Source: Oscillospiraceae bacterium
GTDB lineage: Bacteria; Bacillota; Clostridia; Oscillospirales; Oscillospiraceae
Assembly: GCA_902798545.1 (NCBI GenBank)
Contig: CADBWQ010000004.1
Coordinates: 48,129-112,128 of the forward strand
Direction of reading: 5' to 3'
Length of the DNA stretch: 64,000 nucleotides
The notes under the pieces are model-generated. The model was not told the origin of the DNA and ran no database searches. It worked only from the letters and a program-made list of their open reading frames with translations. Position numbers and translations under genes: made by a program. This document shows, one piece after another, positions 3 to 18,700 of the stretch (position 1 is its first letter; every line of letters starts with the position of its first letter).

Positions 3-662
3 CCGAAGCAGTTTACACTGGTTCATGATCGTCCGCTTTTCTCCTACATTCTGGAAAAAGCCAATCAAATTCCGGAAATCAATTATATTACCGTTGTCTC
101 ACATCACTCCTGGTTGGACTATGTTCAGGAATGGTGCCGGAAGGTTGTGACCAATGTTCCGTTTCATGTTGCGGGTGGTGGAGACACCCGTTCTGAATCT
201 GTATTCAACGGTCTTCATTCTCTCGAGGAAGTTCTGTCACCGGCAGATGTTGTCCTGATTCATGATGCGACACATCCTTACCTTGACCCGGATGCGGTTC
301 GTCGGGTAGCAGAGGCCGCTTCCAAGTATGGCGGTGCAACCGTAGCGAGCAAAAATTATGACACCGTCTATCGAACAGACCAGGAAGGCTTTTTGGAAAA
401 GGTTGAGCCACGTGAACTGATCGTCGCCGGAGCATCTCCTGAGGCTTTTCGCTATGGTGATATTCTGGATATTTATCAGAATTCAACCCCGGAAGAACTG
501 CAGGCAATGACCTCTGCCGGGGCGATCGCGCTTGCGCACGACATTCCCATGCAGGTGATCCCGACATCCGTTCTGAACTTGAAGATAACATATCCCCCCG
601 ATATGGAGCTTTTCCTGCAGCTTGCAGACCACTACTTTTTCCCCGATCATTCAATGGATTAA
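3..662 (+). CDS. IspD/TarI-family cytidylyltransferase, 5'-truncated by window edge
   Basis: The reading frame is open from base 3 and ends at TAA 660-662 (219 residues visible); the N-terminal nucleotide-binding loop lies outside the window. The visible part begins with PKQF, the end of the IspD/TarI signature, followed by GGDTRSESVFNGL, an IHDATHPYL segment corresponding to the HDA-R-P motif, and LKITYPPDMELF, corresponding to the NLKIT-P-D motif near the C-terminus. Family members transfer CMP from CTP to a polyol phosphate: methylerythritol phosphate for IspD, ribitol 5-phosphate for TarI. The TagF-type genes downstream favour a TarI-like role in making a CDP-activated polyol for an envelope polymer, but this is inference. 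The usual QTPQ-F stretch reads GASPEAF, which is atypical, so the substrate may differ. Confidence 0.85.
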   Translation, partial: PKQFTLVHDRPLFSYILEKANQIPEINYITVVSHHSWLDYVQEWCRKVVTNVPFHVAGGGDTRSESVFNGLHSLEEVLSPADVVLIHDATHPYLDPDAVRRVAEAASKYGGATVASKNYDTVYRTDQEGFLEKVEPRELIVAGASPEAFRYGDILDIYQNSTPEELQAMTSAGAIALAHDIPMQVIPTSVLNLKITYPPDMELFLQLADHYFFPDHSMD

Positions 663-2050: not shown

Positions 2051-3787
2051 ATGCTAAAGCTTCAAGCCATACAGTGGGAACGGATTTATCTCAAACCGGT
2101 TATCACTGCAGATAATAATGAATACGAAGATACAGATCTTCATTTCTATCTCGTCAATTCATTCGACGAAGTCCGGGCAGAATTCAGTATTCTTGATGTG
2201 AAGGATAACACCGCATCTCTGCTCTTGAATATAACGAATGACGGCACAAATCAGTGTATCGAAAATGGTAATTATCGTATCATTCTGTCCTCAGGCTGTT
2301 CCGTCATCGGTTCTGTACTATACGATGGTGGGAATGAAACACTGTCCCTGTGGAATAATCATTTCTTGTATGGCAATAATTCCGGCTGTTACACCGTCAC
2401 ATTCATGACGGATCAGTTCAAGGATGATCCTGAGTTAAATATTATTATTCTGGATACTTCTCGAAAAGGGGCCATCTTATCACAGCAAGCAAAACAAGCG
2501 GTTAATCAAAGCTTTCAGAAGAGGAAGCAAAAACTGATTAATCATCTGAAAAAAACGCGCAGTACTCTTCGGAGACTACTGTATCGTCTTATGCGATCAA
2601 AGACAAATAATACTATTTTATTCTTGTCAGAAATGGATGACCATCTTGCTCCTAATATGTCCGCCATATATGAACGGATGAAGGAACGCGGGTTAGATAA
2701 AGAATTCAAGATATCTTTTTTTCTTGAGCGCAAAACCGAAGAGCACTACTCCGTTCGCAGCGCAATAAAAAGGACCTTGGCCGTCTGTAAAGCCGACATA
2801 ATCTTAATCGACGACCATGTTTCATTCTTTGATAATTTTAAACTTGCTGATAATGTCAAATTAATCCAGATCTGGCACGCAGGAGCGGGATTTAAAGGTG
2901 TCGGATACAGTCGCTGGGGGCATTATGGCTGCCCGCCTCCCTTTTCCTGTCACAGGCAATATACTTACTGTATCTCCGGGTCCAAATCTATCAATCATTT
3001 CTTCTCTGAGCAGTTCGGTATTCTGGATGAGCAGATCATTCCCACCGGCATGCCCAGAATGGATCAGTATATGGATCCCGCCCGGAGGAAGGAAGTAACC
3101 GATCAGCTTTATCAGAACTACCCGTTCTTTAAAGGGAAACAGATCATTCTGTTTGCACCGACCTATCGTGGCCAAGGAAGAAAAACCGCGTATTATCCTT
3201 TCAACCTGATTGATTTTCAAGCTCTATATCAGTATTGTACAGAACAAGACGCTGTTGTGCTGTTCAAAATGCATCCCTGGGTCTCTGATCCTGTGCCAAT
3301 TCCTGAGGAACTACATGACCGTCTCTTTGATATGAAGAGTGATGCAAACATCAATGACCTGTTCTACATTACGGATCTACTGATTACCGACTATTCCTCC
3401 AGCATGTATGAATTCTTGTTGATGAACAAACCAATGTTGCTTTTCCCGTTTGATAAAAACCAATATTCTGTATCACGGGGTTTTCATCGAGATTATGACA
3501 GTAACGTTCCCGGTAAAATCTGCATGTCCTTTGATGAATTGATGACAGCACTTCGAAATAGAGACTATGAATATGAGAAAGTGTCCTCATTTCTCTCCTA
3601 CTATTTCGATCAGGTTGATACTTCCAATTGCGACCGAGTAATTGACTGGTTAATCCTGGATCAGCTGCCAGCAGAGTATAAGACTGCCCTGACCAGCAAA
3701 AGAGAGCACATCAACAATGTTAGAAATCTGATTATTCATCGTTCTAATTCTTCACCTTTGAACGATGCTGTTGTTACACATAATTAA
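2051..3787 (+). CDS. CDP-glycerol glycerophosphotransferase family protein (TagF-like)
   Basis: 578 residues. An N-terminal region of about 150 residues resembles the beta-rich accessory domains found before TagF-type catalytic domains. After a basic stretch, the glycerophosphotransferase domain runs from roughly residue 180 to 530. Visible family motifs are QIWHAGAGFKGVG (about 273), FAPTYRG (about 367), LFKMHP (about 405) and LLITDYSSSMYEFLL (about 442). These enzymes polymerise glycerol phosphate or ribitol phosphate from CDP-polyols onto a lipid-linked or glycan acceptor at the cytoplasmic membrane face. The gene starts 31 bases after the GatZ-like gene with a GGTGGA ribosome site, so both are probably on one transcript. 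Which polyol is transferred cannot be read from the sequence. Confidence 0.9.
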   Translation: MLKLQAIQWERIYLKPVITADNNEYEDTDLHFYLVNSFDEVRAEFSILDVKDNTASLLLNITNDGTNQCIENGNYRIILSSGCSVIGSVLYDGGNETLSLWNNHFLYGNNSGCYTVTFMTDQFKDDPELNIIILDTSRKGAILSQQAKQAVNQSFQKRKQKLINHLKKTRSTLRRLLYRLMRSKTNNTILFLSEMDDHLAPNMSAIYERMKERGLDKEFKISFFLERKTEEHYSVRSAIKRTLAVCKADIILIDDHVSFFDNFKLADNVKLIQIWHAGAGFKGVGYSRWGHYGCPPPFSCHRQYTYCISGSKSINHFFSEQFGILDEQIIPTGMPRMDQYMDPARRKEVTDQLYQNYPFFKGKQIILFAPTYRGQGRKTAYYPFNLIDFQALYQYCTEQDAVVLFKMHPWVSDPVPIPEELHDRLFDMKSDANINDLFYITDLLITDYSSSMYEFLLMNKPMLLFPFDKNQYSVSRGFHRDYDSNVPGKICMSFDELMTALRNRDYEYEKVSSFLSYYFDQVDTSNCDRVIDWLILDQLPAEYKTALTSKREHINNVRNLIIHRSNSSPLNDAVVTHN

Positions 3788-3800
3788 GGAACTGTTTTGT

Positions 3801-5228
3801 ATGCCATACTATTCTGATCTTAATAGTCATCTTTTTACACAGTTTTATTCCAAATGGGAAAATGAAATCAATAAGTCTGAAGAATTGAACGCGCCACTTT
3901 GTGCCCCTGTCTATGAAAATGCAGTATTGCTCCCGCTAAGACCTCGTACTGATGTATCTGTACAGAATGTCTGTTGTGAAGGCGGAGTCTGTGCTCAAGA
4001 CGGGACTTTTATTACTGGTTTAACTCGCGCTCTTGATTCCAGAAATCCGGATTGGTCTTGCAAAAGGGGCTATGAAATCCCTGACCAAGTCAATTTTAGA
4101 GACGAAACAGTAATGTATGGCGGCGTGCTGATTGCTCATTTTGGGCACACTCTTTTGGACAGCATGTCACGTATGTGGTGGTGGGTAAAAAATCGGGACC
4201 AGAAGATTAAGATTGTATTTCTCCGTATTCCTGGGCAAAAGAAAGTATACGATTGTTTTCTGCAAGCAGCTGGCCTGAGCGAAACGGACTGGGAGATAAT
4301 TGATGAGCCTACTAGATTCTCAAAGCTAATTGTGCCAGACGAAGCGATGTTTGCTGTCTCCATGAAGGCTCACAAAGACTGGCTACTTTTCTTCGATTTA
4401 ATTAGCGAATCTGCAAAGAAAAAGTGTCGCCCCAATACATACAAAAAAATATATTTAACGAGACGGCAACTCCCAGAGTCGGAAGGTGTTAATGAAGAGT
4501 ACTATGAAGATTTTTATGCTCAACGAGGATATAAAATCATTGCTCCAGAAACACTCCCCTTTGAAGAGCAAATTAATTATATATCAAATGCAGAAGAGAT
4601 TGTCTGCCCAATGGGGACTCTTTCTCATTTTGCTGTTTTTGCGCAACATGATGCCAAATTAACCATTCTTCTCAGGGTAGCAAGTTCCACTATTCTTCCT
4701 CAAATAATTATAAACCGAATTTGTTCTAATAATTGGTATATTGTAGAGGCATGTGTTACACCGTTACCAACGAGCCATTCACATTCGTTTTCCATATATG
4801 CGCCGACTAAATATTTTAGATCATATTTAGATTCTCGTAATATCCCTTATTCCATGGAAGAATTATGGGATCTCCAGATACCTGACGCACTGTATGTCGA
4901 TTATTTTCGAAAGTATACAGATGCATATTCACAACCTAAAAGATTTAAACTAATAAAAAAAGCAGATATGTTCGACGTCCTCAATTCTTTAAACAGGACA
5001 TTTTCTGACCGTTCTTTATCCAGAAATGATTTTGAAACGGATTATGAAACAGTAAAAGCAAATAATAGAGCTCTTAGACAAGACCTCAATACTGCAAGAA
5101 ATAAACTGTATAGAGCTGAAAAAGAGTTAGCCCAGATCTACAACTCAAAAGCTTGGAAGTGCATTACTCGCTATAGACACAGCCTTGTTTATAAACTATT
5201 CCAGAGAATTGCTCATTTATTCCGATAA
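3801..5228 (+). CDS. Glycosyltransferase family 61 (DUF563) protein
   Basis: 475 residues from ATG 3801, preceded by AAGGA about 10 bases upstream; an in-frame start at 3765 would overlap the previous gene. The core GT61 features are visible: GGVLIAHFGHTLLDSMSRMWWW near residue 105, KIYLTRRQ in the middle, and a final segment with EQINYISNAEEIVCPMGTLSHFAVF. Members are retaining or inverting sugar transferases acting on glycans; the acceptor here is presumably the envelope polymer made by its neighbours. The last 60 residues form a basic coiled-coil tail with an IYNSKAWK stretch often seen at the end of bacterial glycosyltransferases. The gene is visibly richer in A and T than its neighbours, consistent with recent acquisition. 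Confidence 0.85.
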   Translation: MPYYSDLNSHLFTQFYSKWENEINKSEELNAPLCAPVYENAVLLPLRPRTDVSVQNVCCEGGVCAQDGTFITGLTRALDSRNPDWSCKRGYEIPDQVNFRDETVMYGGVLIAHFGHTLLDSMSRMWWWVKNRDQKIKIVFLRIPGQKKVYDCFLQAAGLSETDWEIIDEPTRFSKLIVPDEAMFAVSMKAHKDWLLFFDLISESAKKKCRPNTYKKIYLTRRQLPESEGVNEEYYEDFYAQRGYKIIAPETLPFEEQINYISNAEEIVCPMGTLSHFAVFAQHDAKLTILLRVASSTILPQIIINRICSNNWYIVEACVTPLPTSHSHSFSIYAPTKYFRSYLDSRNIPYSMEELWDLQIPDALYVDYFRKYTDAYSQPKRFKLIKKADMFDVLNSLNRTFSDRSLSRNDFETDYETVKANNRALRQDLNTARNKLYRAEKELAQIYNSKAWKCITRYRHSLVYKLFQRIAHLFR

Positions 5229-5872: not shown

Positions 5873-6850
5873 ATGAATAAAAGAATTGCTCTCTGGGATA
5901 ATCTCAGGTTCTTTCTGATTCTTACCGTTGTTCTCGGCCACTTCTGTGAAGCGCAGTCATTTTATTCGTACCAGCGGCTGTTCCTCTTCATCTATTCTTT
6001 CCATATGCCTGCGCTTATTTTCCTCTCCGGTCTTTTCCATCGGAACACACAGATCAAAGAGAAAACCGCGATGTTTTTTTCATTGTATCTGATCATGAAA
6101 GCCCTGATCTACCTGGTACAGCTAAGTATCGGGAAATCACCTTCGTTTCATCTCTTCCAGGAAGCCGGTCTCCCTTGGTTTATGTGGGCAATGGGTATAT
6201 TTGTACCCCTGACCTATTTACTGCGAGGCAGCAGAAAAGCAGTTGTTTTGACAACAGCTCTGGTACTTTCCTGTATCACCGGCTTTTTCTCTTTTGTCGG
6301 CGACAGGTTTGTTCTTTCGCGGACGATTGTTTTCTTTCCTTTCTATTATCTGGGAAGTTTTGTTTCCAGAGACTCACTGACTTCGTTGAAAAAAAACAAA
6401 CTGCTTGTTTCTCTTGCTTTTCTAATTCTTCTCTCCTGGTTTATTTTCTGCTTCGCTTTTCCGGAGCTGTATCACCTGCGTCCTTTCTTTACCGGGAGGA
6501 ATCCCTATGGTGCTCAGCTGCGGCAATGGGGCTGGGCCGTGCGTATGTGTTGTTACCTCATTTCTTCTGTTCTCTGTTTCAGCTGGATTCTGGTAATGCC
6601 TTCTGCGCATTTCTTCTGGACCGTTTGGGGATCTCGCACGTTGCAGGTCTATTTCTGGCACCGTGTTGTTCTGTATTATCTGTCATATTTCAATATTTCT
6701 GCTGTTTTATGTGTCACACGTGTGGGAAAACTACTTTGGCTCCTTCTGGGTATATGCACGGCTGTTCTACTATCCCTTCACAGGATTTCTTTTCCCACTG
6801 AAATCGCACGCGATTTCTTTCTTCATTCAAAACATAACTCCTGGAGGTAA
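5873..6850 (+). CDS. Acyltransferase family 3 (OafA/WecH-type) membrane protein
   Basis: 325 residues with about ten hydrophobic segments, starting at ATG 5873 after GGAGG. The N-terminus WDNLRFFLILTVVLGHF matches the hallmark of acyltransferase-3 proteins (D-LR---I--V---H), followed by FIYSFHMPALIFLSGLF, the second conserved block. Such proteins transfer acyl groups, most often acetyl, to sugars or polymers on the outer face of the membrane. Within this locus it would decorate the teichoic-type polymer or a glycan. The stop is two bases before the next start, so the two genes are translationally linked. The 175 bases in front (5698-5872) are AT-rich and hold no convincing promoter. Confidence 0.85.
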   Translation: MNKRIALWDNLRFFLILTVVLGHFCEAQSFYSYQRLFLFIYSFHMPALIFLSGLFHRNTQIKEKTAMFFSLYLIMKALIYLVQLSIGKSPSFHLFQEAGLPWFMWAMGIFVPLTYLLRGSRKAVVLTTALVLSCITGFFSFVGDRFVLSRTIVFFPFYYLGSFVSRDSLTSLKKNKLLVSLAFLILLSWFIFCFAFPELYHLRPFFTGRNPYGAQLRQWGWAVRMCCYLISSVLCFSWILVMPSAHFFWTVWGSRTLQVYFWHRVVLYYLSYFNISAVLCVTRVGKLLWLLLGICTAVLLSLHRISFPTEIARDFFLHSKHNSWR

Positions 6851-6852
6851 CT

Positions 6853-8136
6853 ATGCTACGTCTTCTGGCTTCTGGTCCGATTTTGTATATCGATCCCGGT
6901 ACCGGGAGTATGTTGTTCAGTATTCTGATCGGCGTTCTCGGTGCTGCTTATTATTTCTTCCGTAGCGCCTTTATTAAGCTGAAGTATTCTGTATCCAACA
7001 ACAAAACAGAGGTGAAGAGCGCCTCCCGTCTGGACTATGCGATCTTTTCTGATGACAAACGGTATTGGAATATCTTTAAACCGATCTGTGAAGAATTTGA
7101 AGCCCGTCAGGTTGAGCTCACTTATTTCACCGCCTCAGAAGATGATCCTGTGTTAAATCAGGATTTCCAATATGTCCACGCTGAATACCTTGGTCCCGGA
7201 AACAGAGCTTTCACCCGCCTGAACATGTTAAACGCGGTAATTGTTCTCTCAACAACACCCAGTCTGGATGTCTATCAGTGGAAGCGTTCAAAGGATGCTC
7301 AATTCTATGTCCATATTGCTCATATGCCGAATGATATCTCTGCTTATGAAATGTTTGGACTTGATCATTACGACGCGATTCTTCTCTCCGGTGAATACCA
7401 GATTCGTCAGATTCGAGAACTGGAGCGTCTGCGAAATTTGCCAGAGAAAGAGTGTGTCCTGGTCGGGCTTCCCTATATGGATGATCTGAAAAGGCAGTTG
7501 GATGCTGCTCCTCCGAAACATTCCGAAAGAAAGACCGTTTTATTGGCGCCCTCCTGGGGAAAAAACGGAATACTGCGGAAATATGGTTCAAAGATGCTCG
7601 ACGCCCTGATCGGTACAGGATATGATATTGTGGTCCGTCCGCACCCTCAGTCCTGGTCTTCGGAAAAAAGTATGATGGAAGCACTGATGGAAAAATATCC
7701 GGATTCAGAACACTTTCACTGGAACCGAGACACCTCCAATTTTGAGGTGCTGCGTTGTTCCGATGTTCTGATCTCTGATTTTTCCGGTGTAATCTTTGAC
7801 TACACTCTCGTTTTCGATAAACCGGTAATCTATACTGATATCTCTGCATTTGACAAATCTGCATGGGATGCTGCCTGGATTGACGAGGAACTGTGGACCT
7901 TTCAGGTATTGCCCAAATTGGGTGAGCAACTGGAAGATGACAGGCTCGATCACATCAAAGAAGTCATCGACCGAGTTACGGATGAACCGAAATATCAGAT
8001 TGCCCGGAATACCGCACGCGCTGAAACCTGGGTTTATGCCGGAGAAGGTGCCCGCCGGACAGCTGATTACCTGATTGCCAAACACACCGCACTGACAGGC
8101 GCTTTCTCCGGCCAGGAAGAGTCTGATCTCAAGTAA
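6853..8136 (+). CDS. Membrane-anchored CDP-glycerol glycerophosphotransferase family protein
   Basis: 427 residues, ATG 6853 with GGAGG eight bases upstream. The first 45 residues hold a short motif YIDPGTGSMLFSILIG running into a membrane segment, then a cytoplasmic TagB/TagF-like domain. Within it, FYVHIAHMPNDISAYEMFGLD replaces the usual WHG block, LLAPSWGKNG matches the FAPT region, VVRPHPQSW matches the K-HP block, and CSDVLISDFSGVIFDYTLVFDKPVIY is the classic donor-site motif. It is the second such transferase in the locus and more likely acts as a priming or branching enzyme than as the main polymerase, because it lacks the accessory domain of the first. The fixed N-terminal helix suggests tethering next to the following membrane protein. 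Confidence 0.85.
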   Translation: MLRLLASGPILYIDPGTGSMLFSILIGVLGAAYYFFRSAFIKLKYSVSNNKTEVKSASRLDYAIFSDDKRYWNIFKPICEEFEARQVELTYFTASEDDPVLNQDFQYVHAEYLGPGNRAFTRLNMLNAVIVLSTTPSLDVYQWKRSKDAQFYVHIAHMPNDISAYEMFGLDHYDAILLSGEYQIRQIRELERLRNLPEKECVLVGLPYMDDLKRQLDAAPPKHSERKTVLLAPSWGKNGILRKYGSKMLDALIGTGYDIVVRPHPQSWSSEKSMMEALMEKYPDSEHFHWNRDTSNFEVLRCSDVLISDFSGVIFDYTLVFDKPVIYTDISAFDKSAWDAAWIDEELWTFQVLPKLGEQLEDDRLDHIKEVIDRVTDEPKYQIARNTARAETWVYAGEGARRTADYLIAKHTALTGAFSGQEESDLK

Positions 8137-8153
8137 AGGAAGATAGTGATACA

Positions 8154-10919
8154 ATGTCTGTTCTGACAGCTCTCTATACTTTGTTGATCCGTCCCCTGGA
8201 GCTGGGATTTGAAGTTGTTTATGTGGTTGTCAACCGTGTCATCAACAATCCCGGTCTTTCCATCATCGCCCTCAGCCTTGCAATGAACTTTCTGGTACTT
8301 CCTCTTTATCGCAGGGCCGATGCGATGCAAGAGGAAGAACGCGCGCTGGAAGCCGGAATGGAAAAATGGGTTACTCATATTCGCAGGACCTTTACCGGTG
8401 ACAAACGGTTCATGATTCTTCAGGAGTATTATCGCCAGAATCATTATAAACCGACATATGCCTTGAGGGGTTCCTTCTCCCTTCTTCTCGAGATCCCTTT
8501 CTTCATTGCTGCTTACCGTTTTCTTTCCGGCCTGGAGCTTCTACATGGAGTATCCTTCGGCCCCATCATAGATTTGGGTGCCCCGGATGCTCTGATCTGT
8601 ATCGGTGAATTACGGGTCAATCTGCTGCCCATTCTGATGACCCTGATCAATGTTGTTTCCGGTGCAGTCTATACCAAAGGGATGCCTCTGAAATCGAAGG
8701 TGCAGTTGTACGCAATGGCACTGGTCTTTCTGGTTTTTCTGTATTCTTCTCCTTCCGGTCTGGTATTCTACTGGACATTGAACAATATTTTTTCGCTGGT
8801 CAAGAACCTGTTTTATAAGCTGCGAAACCCTCGGGCGGTTCTCTATGTTCTTGCCTCTGCTTTCGGGTTAGGGCTGATCGCTGTTTTCGGCTTTCTCTAT
8901 CCCGTTAAACTGAAACCGAAACTGTTCTTTGTAGCTCTCGGAGGTATGCTGCAGCTTCCTCTTCTGCTGCGGTTGATCCCCTTTCACTTCAGCTTTGCTG
9001 GTCGTCGTATAGATCCCGGTTCTGATAACCGGCTGTTCATCATTTCTGCGCTCATAGATACCGTTCTGGTCGGTGTCATGATTCCTTCGGCGGTGATCTC
9101 TTCCTCTCCGGCAGAGTTTATCAATGATGTCTCTCACTTCTCTTCCCCGTTGTCCTATACCCTCTATTCCGGGCTTATCGCACTGGGAACATTTATGCTC
9201 TGGGCCGGTCTGTTCTATTATCTGATGACACCTCAGAGTCGGTCTATCTTCAGTAAGATCTACTTTTCTCTCTCCTGTGTTTTTCTTTTTGATTATCTGG
9301 TGTATGGAAAAGGTCAGAGTAATCTCTCTGCGACGCTTCAGTATGAGAAACAACCCTGGTTTCCACGAGATCTCCAGCTCCTGAATTTATTTGTTGTCTT
9401 CGTTCTGGTTGCTGTCATCTATTACTGTGCTGTACGTCTTCCCAATCTCACCAGGGTGCTGTCTGTATCAGCGCTCCTTGCAGTCTGCGGAATGAGTGTT
9501 CTGAACATCAGAAATACAACTGTTACTCTCCGTTCTTCTCTTTCATATATCAAAGAACAGTCTGACACTGCTGCGAAAGTGCAGGAAAACGGTCTCATCC
9601 ATCTCAGCAGGAATGGGAAGAATGTTGTCTTTCTGATGCTTGATCGTGCAATGGGCAGTTACACGCCTTTTATTATGGATGAGAAGCCTGAACTGATTGA
9701 GAAATTTGATGGATTTACGGCTTATCATAATACTATTTCCTACGGTCGCATTACGATCTATGGTGCCCCTGCAATGATGGCAGGATATGAATACACTCCT
9801 GCTGCCATCAATGCCCGGTCAGAGGACACGTTTCTGCAGAAGCACAATGAATCCTCTCTTGTCATGCCGGTTCTGTTTGATAGCAATGGTTTTCAGGTAA
9901 CTCTCTGCGATCCCCCGCTCGCTGGTCTTGAGTATGTCCCGAACCTGACCATTTATGATGATTATCCGAACATCAAGACTTATATGATCAACAAGCGTCT
10001 TCAACTTGTTGATAACGATATCTCTGATTTTACGGAGCCAATCCGAAAACGTAATTTTTTCTTTTTCGGTCTGACGAAAGTTGCTCCTCTGCTCTTCCAG
10101 AGTTCCCTCTATAATGCGGGTTTATATAACGAGGCCATTCCATCTGATTCTCCGGAGCGTATGACAGAGCAGATTCGATCCGGCTTGTCCACGGCCAAAG
10201 GCCTTTCCAAAATGTTTATGAACACCTATTCTGTCATGCACGAACTGAAATCTCTCACGCGAATTGATGACACCAGTGAAAACCACTTTTTCTTTATGTG
10301 CAATGAGATGACCCACGAGGTGAACATGCTCCAAGAGCCGGATTATGTTCCAAGCCTGGTCGTGGACAATACCCCCTTTGACGACGATCTGTCCACACGT
10401 TACAATATCAACGGGCGCCATATGAGGATGACCACACCGGGACAAGTTGCTCATTATGACTCGAATATGTCTGCCATGATTCAGCTAGCAGCATGGTTTG
10501 ATTTTCTCCGTGAAGAGGGCGTCTATGATAATACGCGCATCATTTTGGTGTCGGATCATGGAACAAGTGCCGGGCAGTTTGACGCACTTGAAATTGATGA
10601 TGTGTTCGATGCCCAGGAGGTAGCAGCGCTTCTGATGGTAAAAGATTTTGATGCCACAGGCTTCTCTTTCTCAGAAGAATTTATGACCAACGCGGATGCT
10701 CCTCTCATTGCCATGAAAGATCTGATCGAAAATCCTGTAAACCCCTTCACAGGGAAAGAACTGAATGATGAGGAAAAATACGCCCATGACCAGGAGGTTC
10801 TCCACTGTAAGATTGCCATGCCGGAGTTCAGAGACGGTTTTACCTACCCTGACGGTGACTGGTATTCGGTCCATGGTAATATTTATGAGAAATCCAATTG
10901 GACACACATTGAAAAATAA
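8154..10919 (+). CDS. Fusion of YidC/Oxa1-like domain and LtaS-like (sulfatase-fold) phosphotransferase
   Basis: 921 residues. Residues 1-230 have the YidC/Oxa1 layout: GLSIIALSLAMNFLVLPLY followed by a charged amphipathic hairpin, a hydrophobic hairpin with EIPFFIAAYRFLSG, and SSPSGLVFYWTLNNIFSLVKN, the family's C-terminal signature. Residues 235-450 add about six more membrane segments. Residues 485-921 are an alkaline-phosphatase/sulfatase-fold domain with likely metal ligands D497 (FLMLDRAMG) and D801/H802 (VSDHGT), and T534 (YGRITIYGAP) as candidate nucleophile, arranged as in lipoteichoic acid synthase. The enzyme domain should lie outside the membrane and transfer a phospho-polyol or phospho-amine group. 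The YidC groove arginine appears replaced by N45, so insertase activity is doubtful. No frameshift interrupts the fusion. Confidence 0.85.
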   Translation: MSVLTALYTLLIRPLELGFEVVYVVVNRVINNPGLSIIALSLAMNFLVLPLYRRADAMQEEERALEAGMEKWVTHIRRTFTGDKRFMILQEYYRQNHYKPTYALRGSFSLLLEIPFFIAAYRFLSGLELLHGVSFGPIIDLGAPDALICIGELRVNLLPILMTLINVVSGAVYTKGMPLKSKVQLYAMALVFLVFLYSSPSGLVFYWTLNNIFSLVKNLFYKLRNPRAVLYVLASAFGLGLIAVFGFLYPVKLKPKLFFVALGGMLQLPLLLRLIPFHFSFAGRRIDPGSDNRLFIISALIDTVLVGVMIPSAVISSSPAEFINDVSHFSSPLSYTLYSGLIALGTFMLWAGLFYYLMTPQSRSIFSKIYFSLSCVFLFDYLVYGKGQSNLSATLQYEKQPWFPRDLQLLNLFVVFVLVAVIYYCAVRLPNLTRVLSVSALLAVCGMSVLNIRNTTVTLRSSLSYIKEQSDTAAKVQENGLIHLSRNGKNVVFLMLDRAMGSYTPFIMDEKPELIEKFDGFTAYHNTISYGRITIYGAPAMMAGYEYTPAAINARSEDTFLQKHNESSLVMPVLFDSNGFQVTLCDPPLAGLEYVPNLTIYDDYPNIKTYMINKRLQLVDNDISDFTEPIRKRNFFFFGLTKVAPLLFQSSLYNAGLYNEAIPSDSPERMTEQIRSGLSTAKGLSKMFMNTYSVMHELKSLTRIDDTSENHFFFMCNEMTHEVNMLQEPDYVPSLVVDNTPFDDDLSTRYNINGRHMRMTTPGQVAHYDSNMSAMIQLAAWFDFLREEGVYDNTRIILVSDHGTSAGQFDALEIDDVFDAQEVAALLMVKDFDATGFSFSEEFMTNADAPLIAMKDLIENPVNPFTGKELNDEEKYAHDQEVLHCKIAMPEFRDGFTYPDGDWYSVHGNIYEKSNWTHIEK

Positions 10920-10941
10920 CTGATACTTTGGAGGAATGACT

Positions 10942-11838
10942 GTGTCTCTGACAAGAAAGCAATTTGACATTCTGGAAAAGCTGATTGACGAAGAAAAGCC
11001 TCTGTCACAGCGTCAGCTCGAAGAGTCTACGCCTTATTCTCTGGGAACCGTAAACCGCACAATCAGAGAACTGACAGAAATGGGATACTTACGTTCCGGT
11101 CAGATTACCAAAGCAGGTTTGGATTCTCTTGAGCCATATCGGGTAAAACGAGCAATCATCGTTGCGGCTGGCTTCGGCTCCAGAATGGTACCCCTGACTT
11201 TTAACACACCAAAACCACTGGTTCGTGTCCACGGCGTCCGGATTATTGACGGCCTGATTGACTCCTGCCTGGAAGCGGGGATCACCGAGATCTATATTGT
11301 CCGCGGTTATCTGGCCGAACAGTTTGATCAGCTGCTTTATAAATATCCTATGCTGAAGTTTCTGGAGAATCCGATCTATAATGAGGCCAATAACATCAGT
11401 TCTGTGATGGTTGCCCGTTACCTGCTCTCCAATTCCTATGTCTTTGAGGCAGATCTTCTCATTACAAATCATGACCTGATAAAGCGATATCATTACTGCT
11501 CCAATTTCCTTGGAATAAAAGTCTCCCGGACAGATGACTGGTGCGTCCGTGTCAAAGATGGGGTCATTCTTGAAGAGAAAGTTGGCGGTGAGGGAGAAGA
11601 TATCTGGCAGCTGGTTGGTATTTCTTACTGGAGTGAAGCCGACGGGCACAGACTGGCTCAGGATATTCAGGATGTTTATCAGTCTCCCGGAGGCAAAGAG
11701 CGCTACTGGGAACAGGTCCCGCTGGTCTATAAGCAGGAACATTATAGCGTAGAAATACGGAACTGCCTGCAGGAGGATATCATTGAAATTGATACGTTTA
11801 ATGAACTGAAAGCGATCGACCGAACCTACGATGTATAA
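10942..11838 (+). CDS. HTH-fused LicC-like nucleotidyltransferase (phosphocholine/aminoethylphosphonate cytidylyltransferase type)
   Basis: 298 residues from GTG 10942; GGAGG lies seven bases before it, whereas the ATG six bases earlier would be only one base from that site. Residues 1-65 are a winged helix-turn-helix (SQRQLEESTPYSLGTVNRTIREL). The rest is a sugar-nucleotidyltransferase fold: AIIVAAGFGSRMVPLTFNTPKPL binds the nucleotide, and NPIYNEANNISSVMVARYLL with VGISYWSEADGHRL and the final IIEIDTFNELKAID match LicC/PntC enzymes that form CDP-choline or CMP-aminoethylphosphonate. It may activate a small phosphorylated head group for attachment to the polymer. The HTH fusion suggests control by substrate or DNA binding. 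Whether choline, ethanolamine or a phosphonate is used cannot be decided here. Confidence 0.85.
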   Translation: MSLTRKQFDILEKLIDEEKPLSQRQLEESTPYSLGTVNRTIRELTEMGYLRSGQITKAGLDSLEPYRVKRAIIVAAGFGSRMVPLTFNTPKPLVRVHGVRIIDGLIDSCLEAGITEIYIVRGYLAEQFDQLLYKYPMLKFLENPIYNEANNISSVMVARYLLSNSYVFEADLLITNHDLIKRYHYCSNFLGIKVSRTDDWCVRVKDGVILEEKVGGEGEDIWQLVGISYWSEADGHRLAQDIQDVYQSPGGKERYWEQVPLVYKQEHYSVEIRNCLQEDIIEIDTFNELKAIDRTYDV

Positions 11839-11989: not shown

Positions 11990-13012
11990 ATGAAACACAT
12001 AATGGCTTTTGTACTCTCTGCCCTTTTGCTTATGGCTTCCGGCTTTTCTGCCTTTGCAGAACCGGCTGTTCCTGTTGCACCTGAAAGGACGGCAGAACTG
12101 AACACCGACAGCAATAAAGTTGTGATCTACTCCGGTGCCGAAGAGTATCGCAATGAATATTTTAAGCAGAGACTGTCTGAAGAGTTTCCTGATTATGATA
12201 TTGTCATTGAATACATGCCCACGGGGAATCTGGCTGCCAAATTGGCCGCAGAAGGCACCGATACGGATATGGACATCTTCTATGATCTCGACTTCAGCTA
12301 TGCGGGGTTGGTTGAACAGTACCTCGCAGATGTTTCCGATTACGATCAGTCGATCTATGTTGACGACTGCAAAGTAGCAAGTGGAAAGTACCTGGCCGCT
12401 ACCAGAAACGGTGGGGCAATTATTGTTAATCCTTCGGTCCTGGAAGCAAAAGGTCTCGATCTCCCGACTTCCTATCAGGATCTGTTAAAACCGGAATACA
12501 AAGGCTTGGTTTCCATGCCGGATCCAAAATCATCCGGAACAGGTTATATGTTTGTGAAGAGTCTCGTGAATGTCTGGGGTGAAGAGGAAGCTTTTGATTA
12601 TTTTGAAGCACTCTCTGAGAATATTCTTCAGTTTACTTCATCCGGCTCTGGTCCGGTAAACGCGCTGATACAGGGAGAAGCTGCAATTGGCCTCGGAATG
12701 ACGGCGCAGGCTGTTACTGCGATCAATGAAGGCGCAGAACTGGAGATTCTTTTCTTTGAGGAAGGCTCTCCGTACTCACTTTATGGCTATGCAATGCCGG
12801 AAGGCAAGGAAGTGCGCAAGGCTGTCAAAGATGTTTTTGATTTCTTCTATACAACGCTTGTCCTTGAAGATAAGGCTCTTTTCTATCCTGAGCAGGTCTT
12901 TATCGGACAAACGAATGAGATTGAGAATTATCCGACAGATATCGCATATGCAGACATGAGCAACAATACGACCGCCGAAAAGACAAGACTTTTAGAGAAC
13001 TGGGAATTCTGA
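11990..13012 (+). CDS. ABC importer extracellular solute-binding protein, family 1 (iron/aminoethylphosphonate type)
   Basis: 340 residues, ATG 11990 after GGAG. The first 22 residues form a signal peptide ending FSAFA-EP with no lipobox cysteine, unusual for a monoderm binding protein. The mature part resembles FbpA/PhnS-type proteins: VVIYSGAEEYRNEYFKQRLSEEFP at the N-terminus, YNLAA-like cleft residues NGGAIIVNPSVLE, and SGSGPVNALIQGEAAIGLGMT in the second lobe. These proteins bind ferric iron, thiamine, putrescine-like or phosphonate ligands. The nearby LicC/PntC-type gene makes an amine-phosphonate or phosphocholine ligand an attractive inference. It heads an operon with an ATPase and a fused permease. 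Confidence 0.85.
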   Translation: MKHIMAFVLSALLLMASGFSAFAEPAVPVAPERTAELNTDSNKVVIYSGAEEYRNEYFKQRLSEEFPDYDIVIEYMPTGNLAAKLAAEGTDTDMDIFYDLDFSYAGLVEQYLADVSDYDQSIYVDDCKVASGKYLAATRNGGAIIVNPSVLEAKGLDLPTSYQDLLKPEYKGLVSMPDPKSSGTGYMFVKSLVNVWGEEEAFDYFEALSENILQFTSSGSGPVNALIQGEAAIGLGMTAQAVTAINEGAELEILFFEEGSPYSLYGYAMPEGKEVRKAVKDVFDFFYTTLVLEDKALFYPEQVFIGQTNEIENYPTDIAYADMSNNTTAEKTRLLENWEF

Positions 13013-13101: not shown

Positions 13102-13887
13102 ATGGATAAAATAATCGTCGAAAACCTTTCAAAAGCCTTTGGTTCATCGGGTGTTCTTCATGATCTCAGTTTCAGTATCCGCGAAGGTGAGTTTCTTTCC
13201 ATTCTAGGTCCATCGGGCTGCGGTAAAACAACCATCCTGAGAATTCTGATTGGCTTGGAATCGCCCGACAGCGGGGCAATATATAAGGACGGCAAGGAAA
13301 TCACCCGCCTTCCGCCTTATCAGAGAAACATGGGAATTGTTTTCCAGAACTATGCGCTCTTTGAAAATATGTCCGTCCTGCAAAATGTGGAATATGCACT
13401 TTTGAAAAGTTCTTCCACCAAGGCGGAGTACAATCCGAGCACCGCACGCTCCAAGGCAAAACTGATGCTTGATATTGTCGGGTTAACCGACCATCTCTCC
13501 AAGAAGCCACGGGAACTTTCCGGCGGCCAGCAGCAGCGTGTAGCAATTGCCCGTACGCTCGCACTGAACCCGGATGTGATTCTGTTTGACGAGCCGATGT
13601 CCGCATTGGATGTTGATACCAGACTCTCTCTCCGCAGCGAGCTGAAGGAGCTTCAGAAGCATTTCGGCACAACCATGGTCTATATCACACATGATCAGGA
13701 AGAGGCCTTTGCGCTTTCCGACCGTATTATGGTGATGGACGCCGGGGTCATTCATCAGCTTGATACACCGCACAATCTGATTCACCACCCTGCTGATGAT
13801 TACGTAAAATGCTTTGTTATCAAGAACATTGACATTAAGATTAACAGCCTGATTCAGTATGCCCAGCGCAGAGAGGAGTTCTTATGA
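13102..13887 (+). CDS. ABC importer ATP-binding protein
   Basis: 261 residues. Walker A GPSGCGKTT lies near residue 36, the Q-loop in NMGIVFQNYALFENM near 80, the signature LSGGQQQR near 140, Walker B VILFDEPMSALD near 160 and the switch histidine in YITHDQEEAFALSDR. It belongs to the FbpC/PotA-like import ATPases; the regulatory C-terminal OB fold of PotA/MalK is absent because the protein ends soon after the ATPase core. It energises the permease whose start codon overlaps its stop by four bases (ATGA), showing coupled translation. Confidence 0.93.
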   Translation: MDKIIVENLSKAFGSSGVLHDLSFSIREGEFLSILGPSGCGKTTILRILIGLESPDSGAIYKDGKEITRLPPYQRNMGIVFQNYALFENMSVLQNVEYALLKSSSTKAEYNPSTARSKAKLMLDIVGLTDHLSKKPRELSGGQQQRVAIARTLALNPDVILFDEPMSALDVDTRLSLRSELKELQKHFGTTMVYITHDQEEAFALSDRIMVMDAGVIHQLDTPHNLIHHPADDYVKCFVIKNIDIKINSLIQYAQRREEFL

Positions 13888-15476
13888 GGTCCGGCGGTCT
13901 CTCAGTGAGAAAATGGTCTCCAGCGGCTTCTTTAAAACTATTGCTTTGCTGTTTCTGGCTCTTTTCCATCATACTCCCTTTATTGCGGATGCTCTCCACT
14001 ATCGCTACTGTGGATGTTGCTTCCGTCATCACCGCCAGAAAGTTTTCCCGAGCTTTTTCTCATTCCATTGCCGCTTCAACCGTTTCTACAATGATTTCGG
14101 TTGTCCTCGCCGGCATTCTCTCCTGGTGCGTCGCCCGTACCAACATCAGACATAAAACGATTTTGAATACGCTCATCACCGTGCCTATGCTCATTCCTTC
14201 CATCTCTCACGGGATGGGACTGATCATCATTCTGGGTGCCAACGGCTGGCTGGCGAGACTCCTGGGGCTGACCGGTGGAATCTATGGCTTCTGGGGAATT
14301 GTTATTGGGTCTGTCATGTACTCCTTCCCTGTTGCCTATCTGATGCTGTATGATGTTCTTCTGTATGAAGATGCCACCCCTTATGAAGCTGCGGATGTAA
14401 TGGGGTTGAAAGCTGCAGACAGGTTTTTTGCCATTACTTTTCCCTATCTACGCAAGCCTCTAATTTCTGTGGTGTTTGCTGCTTTTACGATGATTATTAC
14501 CGACTACGGTGTCCCGCTTATGGTCGGGGGAAAATATACGACACTTCCTGTCATGATGTATCAGGACGTCATCGGCATGTTGGATTTCGGCAAGGGGTCT
14601 GTTATTGGCATGATTCTGTTGATTCCGGCGCTGATTGCCTGTATTCTGGATATGGCAAACAGAGATAAGGGAAATGCAGCTTTTATCGGCAAGCCCTACA
14701 CCCCAAAAGATAATCGGTTGAGAGATACCTGTGCCATTCTGATCATAGGTTTTCTCATAGTTCTGATTTTTCTCCCCATCGGTTCTTTTGCAGTTCTCGG
14801 ATTCATTAACAAGTATCCGATTGATATGACCCTGTCTCTCAGTAATATTACGCAGGCGGTTCACATGGGTGCGTTAAAGTACCTCTGCAATTCCCTCGTA
14901 ATCGCATCGGTTGTCTCTGTCTTTGGAACCGCACTTGCCGTTTTTAACGCGTATATGACTGCACGCAATAAAACGAAAATGAGCTATGTCCTGCACCTTA
15001 TGTCTATCACCTCACTGGCAATTCCAGGCATCGTTCTTGGCCTGTCCTATGTCATGTTCTTCAAAAAATCACCGATTTATGGTACATTTGCCATTTTATT
15101 TCTCGTTAATTCAATGCACTTCTTCGCTTCTCCCTACCTGATGGCTTACAACACCTTTGGTAAAATTAACGAGAATCTGGAAGATGTCGGCTCCACACTC
15201 GGTATTCCTCACTTTCTGATCATCCGTGATGTCCTTCTCCCCCAAGCTGCCGGAACCATTCTGGAAATGGTGAGTTATTTTTTTGTAAACTGTATGATGA
15301 CGATCTCCGCGGTCTCTTTCCTTTCGAATGTAAACACGAAGCCGGTCGCCCTAATGATCACACAGTTTGAAGGCCAGATGCAGCTCGAGTGCGCGGCGTT
15401 CGTTTCTCTGTTGATTCTGGTTGTGAATATTATTATGAAGTATGCAATCTTCCTGATAAAGAAAAAGCTTTCCTGA
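13884..15476 (+). CDS. ABC importer permease, two fused transmembrane halves (FbpB/PhnU-V type)
   Basis: 530 residues, starting at ATG 13884 with GAGGAG close upstream. About twelve membrane segments in two homologous halves each carry a binding-protein-dependent permease loop: YEAADVMGLKAADRFFAITFPYLRKP in the first half (EAA motif) and NLEDVGSTLGIPHFLIIRDVLLPQA in the second. One polypeptide therefore supplies the whole membrane channel, as in the iron and 2-aminoethylphosphonate importers of this family. The substrate is unassigned. Its stop is followed by convergent genes on the other strand, so the locus ends here. Confidence 0.92.
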   Translation: MRSGGLSVRKWSPAASLKLLLCCFWLFSIILPLLRMLSTIATVDVASVITARKFSRAFSHSIAASTVSTMISVVLAGILSWCVARTNIRHKTILNTLITVPMLIPSISHGMGLIIILGANGWLARLLGLTGGIYGFWGIVIGSVMYSFPVAYLMLYDVLLYEDATPYEAADVMGLKAADRFFAITFPYLRKPLISVVFAAFTMIITDYGVPLMVGGKYTTLPVMMYQDVIGMLDFGKGSVIGMILLIPALIACILDMANRDKGNAAFIGKPYTPKDNRLRDTCAILIIGFLIVLIFLPIGSFAVLGFINKYPIDMTLSLSNITQAVHMGALKYLCNSLVIASVVSVFGTALAVFNAYMTARNKTKMSYVLHLMSITSLAIPGIVLGLSYVMFFKKSPIYGTFAILFLVNSMHFFASPYLMAYNTFGKINENLEDVGSTLGIPHFLIIRDVLLPQAAGTILEMVSYFFVNCMMTISAVSFLSNVNTKPVALMITQFEGQMQLECAAFVSLLILVVNIIMKYAIFLIKKKLS

Positions 15477-15762: not shown

Positions 15763-18700
15763 TTATTTTGCTTTTACGCTGAGACCGGATTCGTATGGAC
15801 TTGTGAAGATTGTTCCGGCACCGTTTATACAACGTATCGTATACACATAGGTGTTTCCGGCTTTGGCGGTCTTGTCCTCAAAGGACAGGCTTGTTGTATC
15901 GGCCAGTCTCTTCCAGCCTCCGTCGCCCAGCTTTCTGAAAACACGGTACTTTTCTGCACCAGAAACAGCATTCCATTTGACGGTCACCTTTCCGATGGAT
16001 GCGCTCGCGCTGACAAGTTTGGGTGCTGCGAGCTTGAACGGTACTGAAACTTGCAGGCCGGTGGAATCATAACCAGTGATGAAGTTGCCGTTCTCATCGA
16101 TGCCTCTTACGGTGAAGTAATAGGTATGATTCACGGTTGCAGTTGGGTCATCATAGCTGGTTCCCTTGACATCCGCCAACTTCTTCCATCCACTGTTAGC
16201 AGTTCTCCAGAAGACCCGGTATTTTGTTACTCCGGAGACAGCCTTCCAGGTAATCCTGACGGTTGCTTTGGAAGCCGTGGAAGATACAACCTTTGCGCTG
16301 ATCAACTGAGGAGAACCATAGAACACAATCTCCTTGCTGCCGGACGCAGAGCTCTTCTGCGATCCCTTCAGTGCAAAGATCCTGTAAATATAGCGTGTTC
16401 CGGAAGAGGCGGTGGTGTCTGTGTATGTAGTACCGGAGGTTGTACCTATCGTTGACCAGCTCCCACCGTCCAGTTTGCGGTCAATCTGGTAACTTGTTGC
16501 TCCTGAAACGGCAGACCACTTCAATACAACGCCGCTTGCTCCGTTTGAGATGGAAGAAATCGTCGGCGTTGACAAGCCATTTGTACTGAATGACTGGGTA
16601 ATTCCACTGGCTCTGTACCCGCCCATGTTATTGCCATTTTCGTTATAGGCACGAACAGTATAGGTATATTTGTAGTCTTTCAGAACATCTGTATCCGTCC
16701 AGGTCAGCGTTGTATATCCACTGACTGTTTTAACGTGTGACCAGCTTTGTGCACCTTCGAGCTTTCTGTAAATGCGGTATCCCTCGGCACCATCTACACT
16801 CTTCCACTTGACGGTAATACCGTTGGTGACGACAGCCGGCGTGACCAGATCCGGTGTCATCAGGAAGTTGACTGTGAGGCCGGTTCCATTATAGTCGCTG
16901 ACCCTCTCCCCGGAGGCATTCAGGCAGCTTACCGTATAAGTGTACTTGACTCCGGATTTTGGCGGTGTATCCGTATAACTGGTTCCGGCAAAGCTGCCAA
17001 CCAGTGTGCTGTTCGACCAGCTTTTTCCAGCTTCCTTTCGGTAGATACGATAGTTTGTGATGCCGTCACAGGCCCTCCAAGAAAGTGTAACTGTACCCGT
17101 TCCGGAGGCAATTGCACCGTCCACTTTGATCTCCTGCAGGATTGGCGTCACATGACGTGTAAAGGGATTTTTCGTCGTTGCCGCAAAATAACTTAATTCT
17201 GTCTTGCCATCGTTGTCGACACACCTGACGGAATAGTAGAAGTCCTCATTATCCTTGTTCTTGATCGATTCATCCACAAAGCTTGTCCCATGCACTGTCT
17301 TGACAAGGGCGTAAGCTTCTTCTGTGGTATTTCTCTCGCGTCTGTAGACATTGTAGTATTCGACTCCGTCTACTTTATTCCACTTGACGTAAATGCCTTC
17401 CGTCTTGTTTTCACAGGAGATTAACGTCGGACCATTCTTGATCGATGGGTCTTCATTATACCCATAATAGGTTGCTTTCAGTCCGACAGCATCATACCCG
17501 CTGACCTGTTTGCCACCTGACTCGCAGGAAACAGTATATGTATACGTCGTTCCGCTCGTCACCTTTGTATCAGTATAGACAAGATATTCTCCGTCTTTGG
17601 TTCCGGCAGTCTTTTCATGTACACTCCAGCTGCCATTCTCCGTTTTCCGTAGAATTCTATACGTAGTGATATCCGCTACCGGAATCCATCTGATCTTGAT
17701 GCCTTCGGATACGACTTCGATATCCTTAAGCTTAGGAGGTCCGTAGTAAAGGGTCGCAATACCGACAGTTCCATCCGCCTCCATGCTCGAGACCTTCCCG
17801 TCCTTATTCAGTACGCAGACCGCATAACGATAAGTTACGCCGGAAGTCAATTCCTTATCGTTGTCTGTGAAGACCGTATCCGTGGTAGTCCCGATTGCAA
17901 CATAGGCTGCACCCGGCTTATCAATTTTGCGGTAAACCTGATACTTCGGTGCTGTCGGCACGATCTCCCAAGTGATGTTGATACCTTCGGGAACCGGCTC
18001 TGCCTTTGTCAGATTCGGGCTGGGATAATACATGCCCTTAATCCCGTTGGCATCATAAGTGCTCTTGTATTCCGCCCCTGTCGAATCGACACAGCGCACT
18101 GTGTATATGAACTCCGTTCCGATAAATCCTGTTGCCCCGGTATCCACATAGGTGATCTGTGCAGAAGAATACGGACCATAGGCTTTTTCGATGCGAATCC
18201 ATTCTGTATCGCCGACTGCCTTGCGGTAGATCTGATAATACTCTGCTCCTTCGACCTTCTTCCAGGTAACCGTAATACCCTCATCGCCGCTTATTCCATC
18301 TACACCAATGCCGGTCTTGACCAGAATCGGGTAGTTCGTATATCCTGTTGATATTCCAGCAGAATCAAAACTGCTGATAAAGGCACCCGAAGCATTCACA
18401 CAGCGGACAGTGTAGACATACTCGCTGCCTGCGGCCGCATTCTTATCCGTATAAGTCGTCGTTGTAACATCTGCAAGTTTCTTCCATCCGCCGCTGGGCA
18501 TTACTTTGCGGAAGACTCTGTAATAAGTTACACCCTTGACGGCATGCCAGTTAATTGTTACACCATCTTTTGTAAGCGTCGGCTGCTTATCAAGTTCCGG
18601 CGCATCATAGAAGGCTATTGTCTTTCCTGTCTCATCATAGATTCCTATGATGCTGTTGCTGGAATCCACACACATCACGCGGTAGGTATAGGTGTTGTCT

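Follow-up and report, generated by a model that had tools for sequence, protein, structure and literature searches.

What does a YidC/Oxa1-like module do when it forms the N-terminal part of the same polypeptide as an extracellular domain of the AP superfamily? The question is raised by a 921-residue reading frame in a 64,000-nucleotide stretch of DNA from an Oscillospiraceae bacterium (contig CADBWQ010000004.1; the whole stretch is referred to here as the window), in which three parts can be distinguished:

8154..8831, + strand: fusion gene, residues 1-226, YidC module (groove-centre N45 at 8286-8288)
8832..9563, + strand: fusion gene, residues 227-470, about seven transmembrane helices by model and hydropathy; the least conserved part (27% median identity)
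9564..10919, + strand: fusion gene, residues 471-921, extracellular AP-superfamily domain, from its fold and invariant site residues

The fusion gene and its occurrence

The original prediction described a single uninterrupted frame with a YidC/Oxa1-like N-terminal module and expected similar fusions in clostridial genomes, and all three statements hold. The module matches PF02096 at 75.9 bits (cut-off 35), and structure comparison finds the YidC fold with its five-helix groove; the match to NCBIfam TIGR03592 (yidC_oxa1_cterm) reaches 73.7 bits, below the cut-off of 84.3. A scan of genome contigs gave 76 loci, from the best 80 of 126 relatives, and a family-level search of 250 genomes gave nine, the window's own among them; the counts below refer to a set of 85 loci, and they are not independent of one another because many loci are contig fragments and several come from close relatives. 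Copies at least 830 residues long number 118 and are spread over 81 of the 85 loci, which rules out a frameshift or assembly artefact as the source of the fusion. The family is found in some gut and rumen bacteria. Carriers named by record title are Butyrivibrio sp. MB2005, Clostridium punense DSM 28650 and Lachnospiraceae XPB1003, joined by many MAGs labelled Lachnospiraceae, Oscillospiraceae, Saccharofermentans, Eggerthellaceae and Coriobacteriaceae.

Two candidate unfused homologues were rejected, as the gene in L012 reaches the contig end and that in L010 starts at base 3 of its contig. The only true YidC-less form among the candidates is that of L011/L116, from a genome of the window's genus (G224), where a 704-residue homologue (L116:7174-9288) has the first 32 residues of the fusion and the YidC core is gone. 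This gene retains the catalytic motifs and stands alone amid housekeeping genes, and the same genome also has two YidC-GlyphosB genes of the kind discussed below.

The strongest constraint within the fusion falls on the YidC module. Compared with the window protein, the homologues show a median identity of 59% in the YidC module, 27% in the middle and 41% in the sulfatase part, and positions conserved in at least 90% of sequences number 54 of 188, 13 of 244 and 69 of 451, respectively.

The window locus and GlyphosB, a partner of the fusion

The genes around the fusion are the following:

114..662, + strand: IspD/TarI-like cytidylyltransferase (PF01128, 78.7 bits, profile positions 61-213; the frame lacks the profile's N-terminal third)
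2051..3787, + strand: TarL-like polyol-phosphate polymerase (PF04464, 240 bits; NCBIfam TarL, 332.6 bits, under the cut-off of 1000)
3765..5228, + strand: GT61 glycosyltransferase (PF04577, 45.8 bits)
5873..6850, + strand: acyltransferase family 3 (PF01757, 52.5 bits)
6853..8136, + strand: GlyphosB, 427 residues, YIDPGTG and one membrane helix, then a GT-B domain of CDP-glycerol glycerophosphotransferase type (PF04464, profile, model, fold)
6886-6906, + strand: YIDPGTG motif of GlyphosB
10936..11838, + strand: HTH and LicC-type CTP:head-group cytidylyltransferase (pneumococcal LicC 1jyk, E 9.3e-24, residues 65-294; Pfam MarR_2, NTP_transferase)
11990..13012, + strand: ABC importer substrate-binding protein, nearest to the aminoethylphosphonate binder PhnS2 (TIGR03261, 167.7 bits, under the cut-off of 392.75)
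13102..13887, + strand: ABC importer ATPase, nearest model PhnT2 (TIGR03265, 306.8 bits, under the cut-off of 457.7)
13884..15476, + strand: ABC importer permease (BPD_transp_1, 65.8 bits)

This list bears out the surface-polymer context that had been read from the neighbours. The TarL-like polymerase (2051..3787) probably serves the polymer backbone. A GatZ/KbaZ-like tagatose-bisphosphate aldolase subunit is encoded within the polymer locus (622-2019), and a 1451-residue, secreted-looking protein with many fibronectin-like repeats (15763-20118, minus strand) adjoins it. Just upstream of the window (L118:13538-18010) are two LicD genes and an ABC-2 exporter with its ATPase, and an alcohol dehydrogenase gene also lies beside them. 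The gene at 10936-11838 belongs to the LicC cytidylyltransferases by its match to the characterised LicC. Neither a choline kinase nor a PEP mutase over cut-off was found in the window genome (92% complete), and because the locus combines the HTH-LicC gene with an importer nearest to aminoethylphosphonate systems, this gene content suggests that the head group is probably imported ready-made in the window organism.

GlyphosB is a member of PF04464 (47.7 bits, cut-off 22.1), with only 16 bits against NCBIfam TarF/TarL. A single-sequence search of the PDB gave no match; a profile search matched Cps3D and TarL, and the predicted fold is TagF-like, with UDP-GlcNAc 2-epimerases equally near. The YIDPGTG motif is invariant in 60 of 60 aligned GlyphosB sequences. 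In the window-type loci L014-L089 the YIDP motif occurs in 56 of 59 GlyphosB, the remaining three being fragments, and in one other frame, an unrelated one of 654 residues.

The link between GlyphosB and the fusion is tight. In a sample of 391 genomes of the class (two draws of 391, taken as the same), GlyphosB accompanies the fusion in 11 of 12 genomes, and none of the other 379 has a match at that score; the twelfth, G489, has the fusion and no GlyphosB. GlyphosB adjoins 62 of 132 fusion genes or fragments, and was not seen in 26 of the 85 loci, within the DNA of those loci. Tandem arrays of two to four fusion paralogues per locus occur in L026, L030, L038, L043, L053, L067, L068, L070, L073, L082 and L087, frequently with a single GlyphosB, and a single GlyphosB accompanies two to four fusions in 21 of the 85 loci. 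Co-homogenisation of YidC modules within such arrays is weak overall, with an excess identity of 0.054 per locus (Wilcoxon p 0.035); 14 of the 21 loci show a positive value (sign test p 0.19).

The extracellular domain

The site residues of the AP domain lie at these positions:

9642-9644 (D497), 9753-9755 (T534), 10314-10316 (H721) and 10554-10559 (D801/H802), + strand: AP site residues

Fold comparison places the domain in the AP superfamily, and the PF00884 Sulfatase match is 18.6 bits, below the cut-off of 25. D497, D801 and H802 had been named as metal ligands and T534 as nucleophile, and these catalytic residues are confirmed by their invariance: across all 119 sequences, no change is seen at N490, D497, E510, T534, Y653, H721, D801, H802 or K830. 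D497, D801 and H802 are aligned with phosphonate monoester hydrolase, and T534 would serve as a threonine nucleophile. The description of the domain as an LtaS-like phosphotransferase stands at the level of the fold but not as closer kinship, as phosphonate monoester hydrolases, choline sulfatase, other sulfatases, PbgA/YejM, EptC, MCR-1 and LtaP are about equally near.

An LtaS-type polymerase is a less likely identity for this domain. We regard as improbable the specific proposal that it draws on phosphatidylglycerol as an LtaS-like polymerase or phosphoglycerol transferase, with YidC as a scaffold that docks it to the polymer machinery. The proposal is helped by LtaS and LtaP being among the nearest folds and by a window locus whose TarL-like, IspD/TarI-like and ABC-2 genes would suit such a polymerase; however, the fold is just as close to sulfatases, phosphonate monoester hydrolases and head-group transferases, and a phosphatidylglycerol-fed enzyme leaves unexplained both the tight GlyphosB link and the neighbouring head-group genes.

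A second arrangement of the same modules

The weaker matches turned out to be fusions of another type, YidC-GlyphosB, at six loci in five genomes; in all five that were scanned both Pfam domains exceed their cut-offs, YidC with 99-118 bits and Glyphos_transf with 29-57 bits. Five of the six loci contain an AP-type membrane gene within a stretch of 18-19 kb, and none was found in L142. A profile built from the middle and AP parts of the fusion matches each of these five AP genes in two segments, and two of them are over the Pfam Sulfatase cut-off, while the proteins of L145, L146 and L147, under that cut-off or with no Pfam match, are called AP from the two-segment matches. In L146, about 7 kb of DNA carrying unrelated genes separates the AP gene from YidC-GlyphosB. 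The YIDPS helix is found in five of the six loci, as a small protein in four (with no Pfam family over cut-off) and, in L143, as the N-terminal end of the AP protein; no YIDP motif was found in L145. Because the YidC-GlyphosB loci hold the YIDP helix and the AP genes separately, the two types are two wirings of the same four modules, YIDP-GlyphosB with YidC-AP in the one and YidC-GlyphosB with YIDP(-AP) and AP in the other. In L142 and L147 the YidC-GlyphosB gene lies within a phosphonate operon, next to PEP mutase, decarboxylase, cytidylyltransferase and Fe-ADH genes.

In a tree of YidC sequences the window type and the second type each form one clade (100/100), and the second type sits among ordinary clostridial YidC. 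Each partner may have acquired its YidC module in a separate recruitment; since a joint clade is not rejected (p-AU 0.127), we claim neither one nor two origins.

The role of the YidC module

The fusion is not the cell's insertase, because all 12 genomes searched encode another YidC in addition to whatever fusion they carry. When a profile of the fusion's YidC module was searched across 299 genomes of the phylum, fusion genes scored 352-380 bits and the other matches listed at E 1e-15 scored at most 72, so that no free-standing copy of the fusion's YidC clade is present among those matches.

The groove-centre position (E. coli R366, placed by alignment) is Asn or Ser in 116 of 119 rows of the window type, and Arg or Lys in none of the 118 window-type modules having a residue there. 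Arg or Lys is found in 19 of 19 other clostridial YidC, in six of six modules of the second type and in seven of the 12 housekeeping YidC of these genomes, the other five being without charge. The window organism's own housekeeping YidC (L001:970-2364, minus strand) has Asn at this position, which has been described as always positive, and passages of PMC8920935 report that E. coli YidC tolerates neutral groove-centre residues when position 517 is aromatic. As proof of altered function, the loss of groove charge is weakened by these observations; since five housekeeping copies are also without charge, it is treated as a lead.

These data bear on the idea that the module still acts as an insertase or chaperone, dedicated to the membrane assembly of its partners, be they GlyphosB, the AP protein or the YIDP helix. 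Strong conservation of the YidC core residues and the finding of YidC fused to either partner agree with it, but each of the 12 genomes searched already has a separate YidC, and we consider it very unlikely. The groove charge missing from all 118 window-type modules adds a weak point against it, weak because of the charge-less housekeeping copies and the tolerance reported for E. coli.

Neighbour genes and the likely head group

Those neighbours that are informative speak for cytidine-activated head groups of the choline, phosphonate or ethanolamine type and not for phosphatidylglycerol-fed polymerisation. Donor-type genes (CDP-choline, CMP-phosphonate, CDP-ethanolamine) lie near the fusion in about a quarter of the loci. 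LicC/PntC-type cytidylyltransferases occur in 23 of the 85 loci (62 are without one in the DNA of those loci), PEP mutase with the EDKxxxxxNS motif in nine, phosphonopyruvate-decarboxylase-like genes in eight, choline-kinase-like genes in six, and a single gene combining a cytidylyltransferase with a CobD-like (Ser/Thr-phosphate) decarboxylase in ten. This last gene, seen at L059:8185-9984 and in nine more loci, sometimes between two fusion genes, looks like a maker of CDP-ethanolamine or CDP-aminopropanol. Five other fusion genomes have a PEP mutase over cut-off, about 1-22 kb from the fusion in G383, G361, G306 and G333 and on another contig in G450. A CAAX-protease-like (Rce1) cluster is found close upstream of GlyphosB or the fusion in L019 (5985-6764), L023, L024, L049 and L050.

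A census of 94 neighbour proteins revealed no dominant family, the commonest being present in six. The 94 were taken from 115 used out of 150 listed references, which represent 238 neighbour genes. The functions given above for the neighbours are the Pfam matches of one representative per cluster, and scores of cluster members against HMMs built from the same clusters are circular.

A different use of such head groups would have LicD attach them to the unfinished polymer inside the cell, leaving GlyphosB and YidC-AP to another step such as terminal polyol phosphate addition, polymer attachment or export. LicD is present in 15 of 20 fusion carriers, two copies lying beside the ABC-2 exporter just upstream of the window, and passages of PMC6697681 describe LicD-like genes with phosphonate clusters. 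It is absent, however, from five carriers, including G084 (100% complete) and G383 (97% complete, PEP mutase about 1 kb from the fusion), and does not appear among the 25 of 117 matched families listed for the census of 94 proteins; the YidC-GlyphosB gene, moreover, sits inside phosphonate operons. We judge this explanation unlikely.

A proposed head-group relay

The single GlyphosB with two to four fusions, the pairing with GlyphosB and the reshuffling of modules together suggest a head-group relay of which the fusion would be the half that spans the membrane and acts outward, a reading to which we assign a little short of an even chance. Inside the cell, a LicC/PntC-type enzyme would make a cytidine-activated small head group, for which choline-P, aminoethyl- or hydroxyethyl-phosphonate and ethanolamine-P are candidates. 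GlyphosB, anchored by its YIDP helix, would take the phospho- or phosphono-head group off its cytidine carrier and load it onto a membrane lipid. The hydrophilic YidC groove would offer the head-group lipid a passage to the outer leaflet, and the AP domain would use its threonine nucleophile and metal site to pass the head group from the lipid to a surface polymer. Folds, invariant sites, partner co-occurrence, module reshuffling and neighbour genes are observed; we infer the chemistry of GlyphosB, the lipid intermediate, the crossing through YidC and the acceptor. The original suggestion that YidC had become a scaffold or lipid-substrate channel agrees with the reshuffling and the high conservation of the module, and stays a proposal.

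Some published observations are relevant here. Lipid scrambling by E. coli YidC in liposomes is described in passages of PMC10491306. According to parts of PMC10434233, other phosphocholine pathways use a lipid donor while LicD instead uses CDP-choline, and PptA belongs to the AP superfamily.

Several findings count against the relay. LicD, present in most carriers, could carry out the transfer inside the cell; within the DNA of the 85 loci, GlyphosB was not seen in 26 and a LicC/PntC-type cytidylyltransferase not in 62, and G489 is without GlyphosB. The AP protein of G224 has no YidC core, the importer scores lie under the aminoethylphosphonate cut-offs, a 7-kb gap separates the genes in L146, and the array co-evolution test of the YidC modules is weak.

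In its full form the proposal is a four-module machine of YidC fold, YIDP helix, GT-B head-group transferase and AP-fold transferase, in which the YidC-type module has specialised in flipping lipid-linked phosphocholine, phosphonate or phosphoethanolamine, for the decoration of surface polymers in commensal Clostridia and Coriobacteria; this we offer more tentatively, as possible and rather doubtful. If it is true, the Oxa1 superfamily has a physiological job beyond protein insertion, the scrambling of lipids by YidC in liposomes gains a natural, testable setting, and the missing transfer step in phosphonate or phosphocholine decoration is named for bacteria that abound in the gut and rumen. 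The existence of two wirings provides a built-in test of which modules touch.

Comparison with known systems

No description of either fusion was found in titles or abstracts across the open-access literature searched; a passage search found neither 'fusion' nor 'fused' in PMC2706819, on YidC family phylogeny, and no 'YidC' in PMC6697681, on phosphonate cytidylyltransferases.

The fusions share sequence family and five-helix groove fold with the YidC/Oxa1/Alb3 insertases (PF02096), and differ from them in being joined to a transferase (AP in the window type, GT-B in the second) and, in the window type, by the absence of Arg or Lys at the groove centre. As in LtaS/LtaP, MCR-1, EptC, PbgA/YejM and PptA, membrane helices are followed by an extracellular AP domain with an Asp/Thr/His site; unlike LtaS/LtaP and the AP-type head-group transferases, the fusion falls under the Pfam Sulfatase cut-off, has an extra N-terminal YidC module and is linked to genes for cytidine-activated head groups. 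GlyphosB has the family domain and TagF-like fold of the TagF/TarL CDP-polyol phosphotransferases (PF04464), but is short, has a single N-terminal helix with YIDPGTG and is the partner of the fusion.

The LicD and Pnt decoration pathways, as presented in parts of PMC10434233 and PMC6697681, have the same donor-making genes as the fusion neighbourhoods, whereas the transferase proposed here would be GlyphosB with YidC-AP, instead of or besides LicD. A parallel in logic is three-component teichoic acid glycosylation, which PMC7389260 describes as a cytoplasmic glycosyltransferase, the GtcA flippase and an extracellular glycosyltransferase. None of the three proteins is homologous to those of the fusion system, as far as families were tested, and the present system would handle a phospho- or phosphono-head group and no sugar, with a YidC fold in the place of the flippase. 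The two would nevertheless be alike in plan, with a donor lipid made inside, flipped and used outside, an order that is proposed here from gene composition and linkage.
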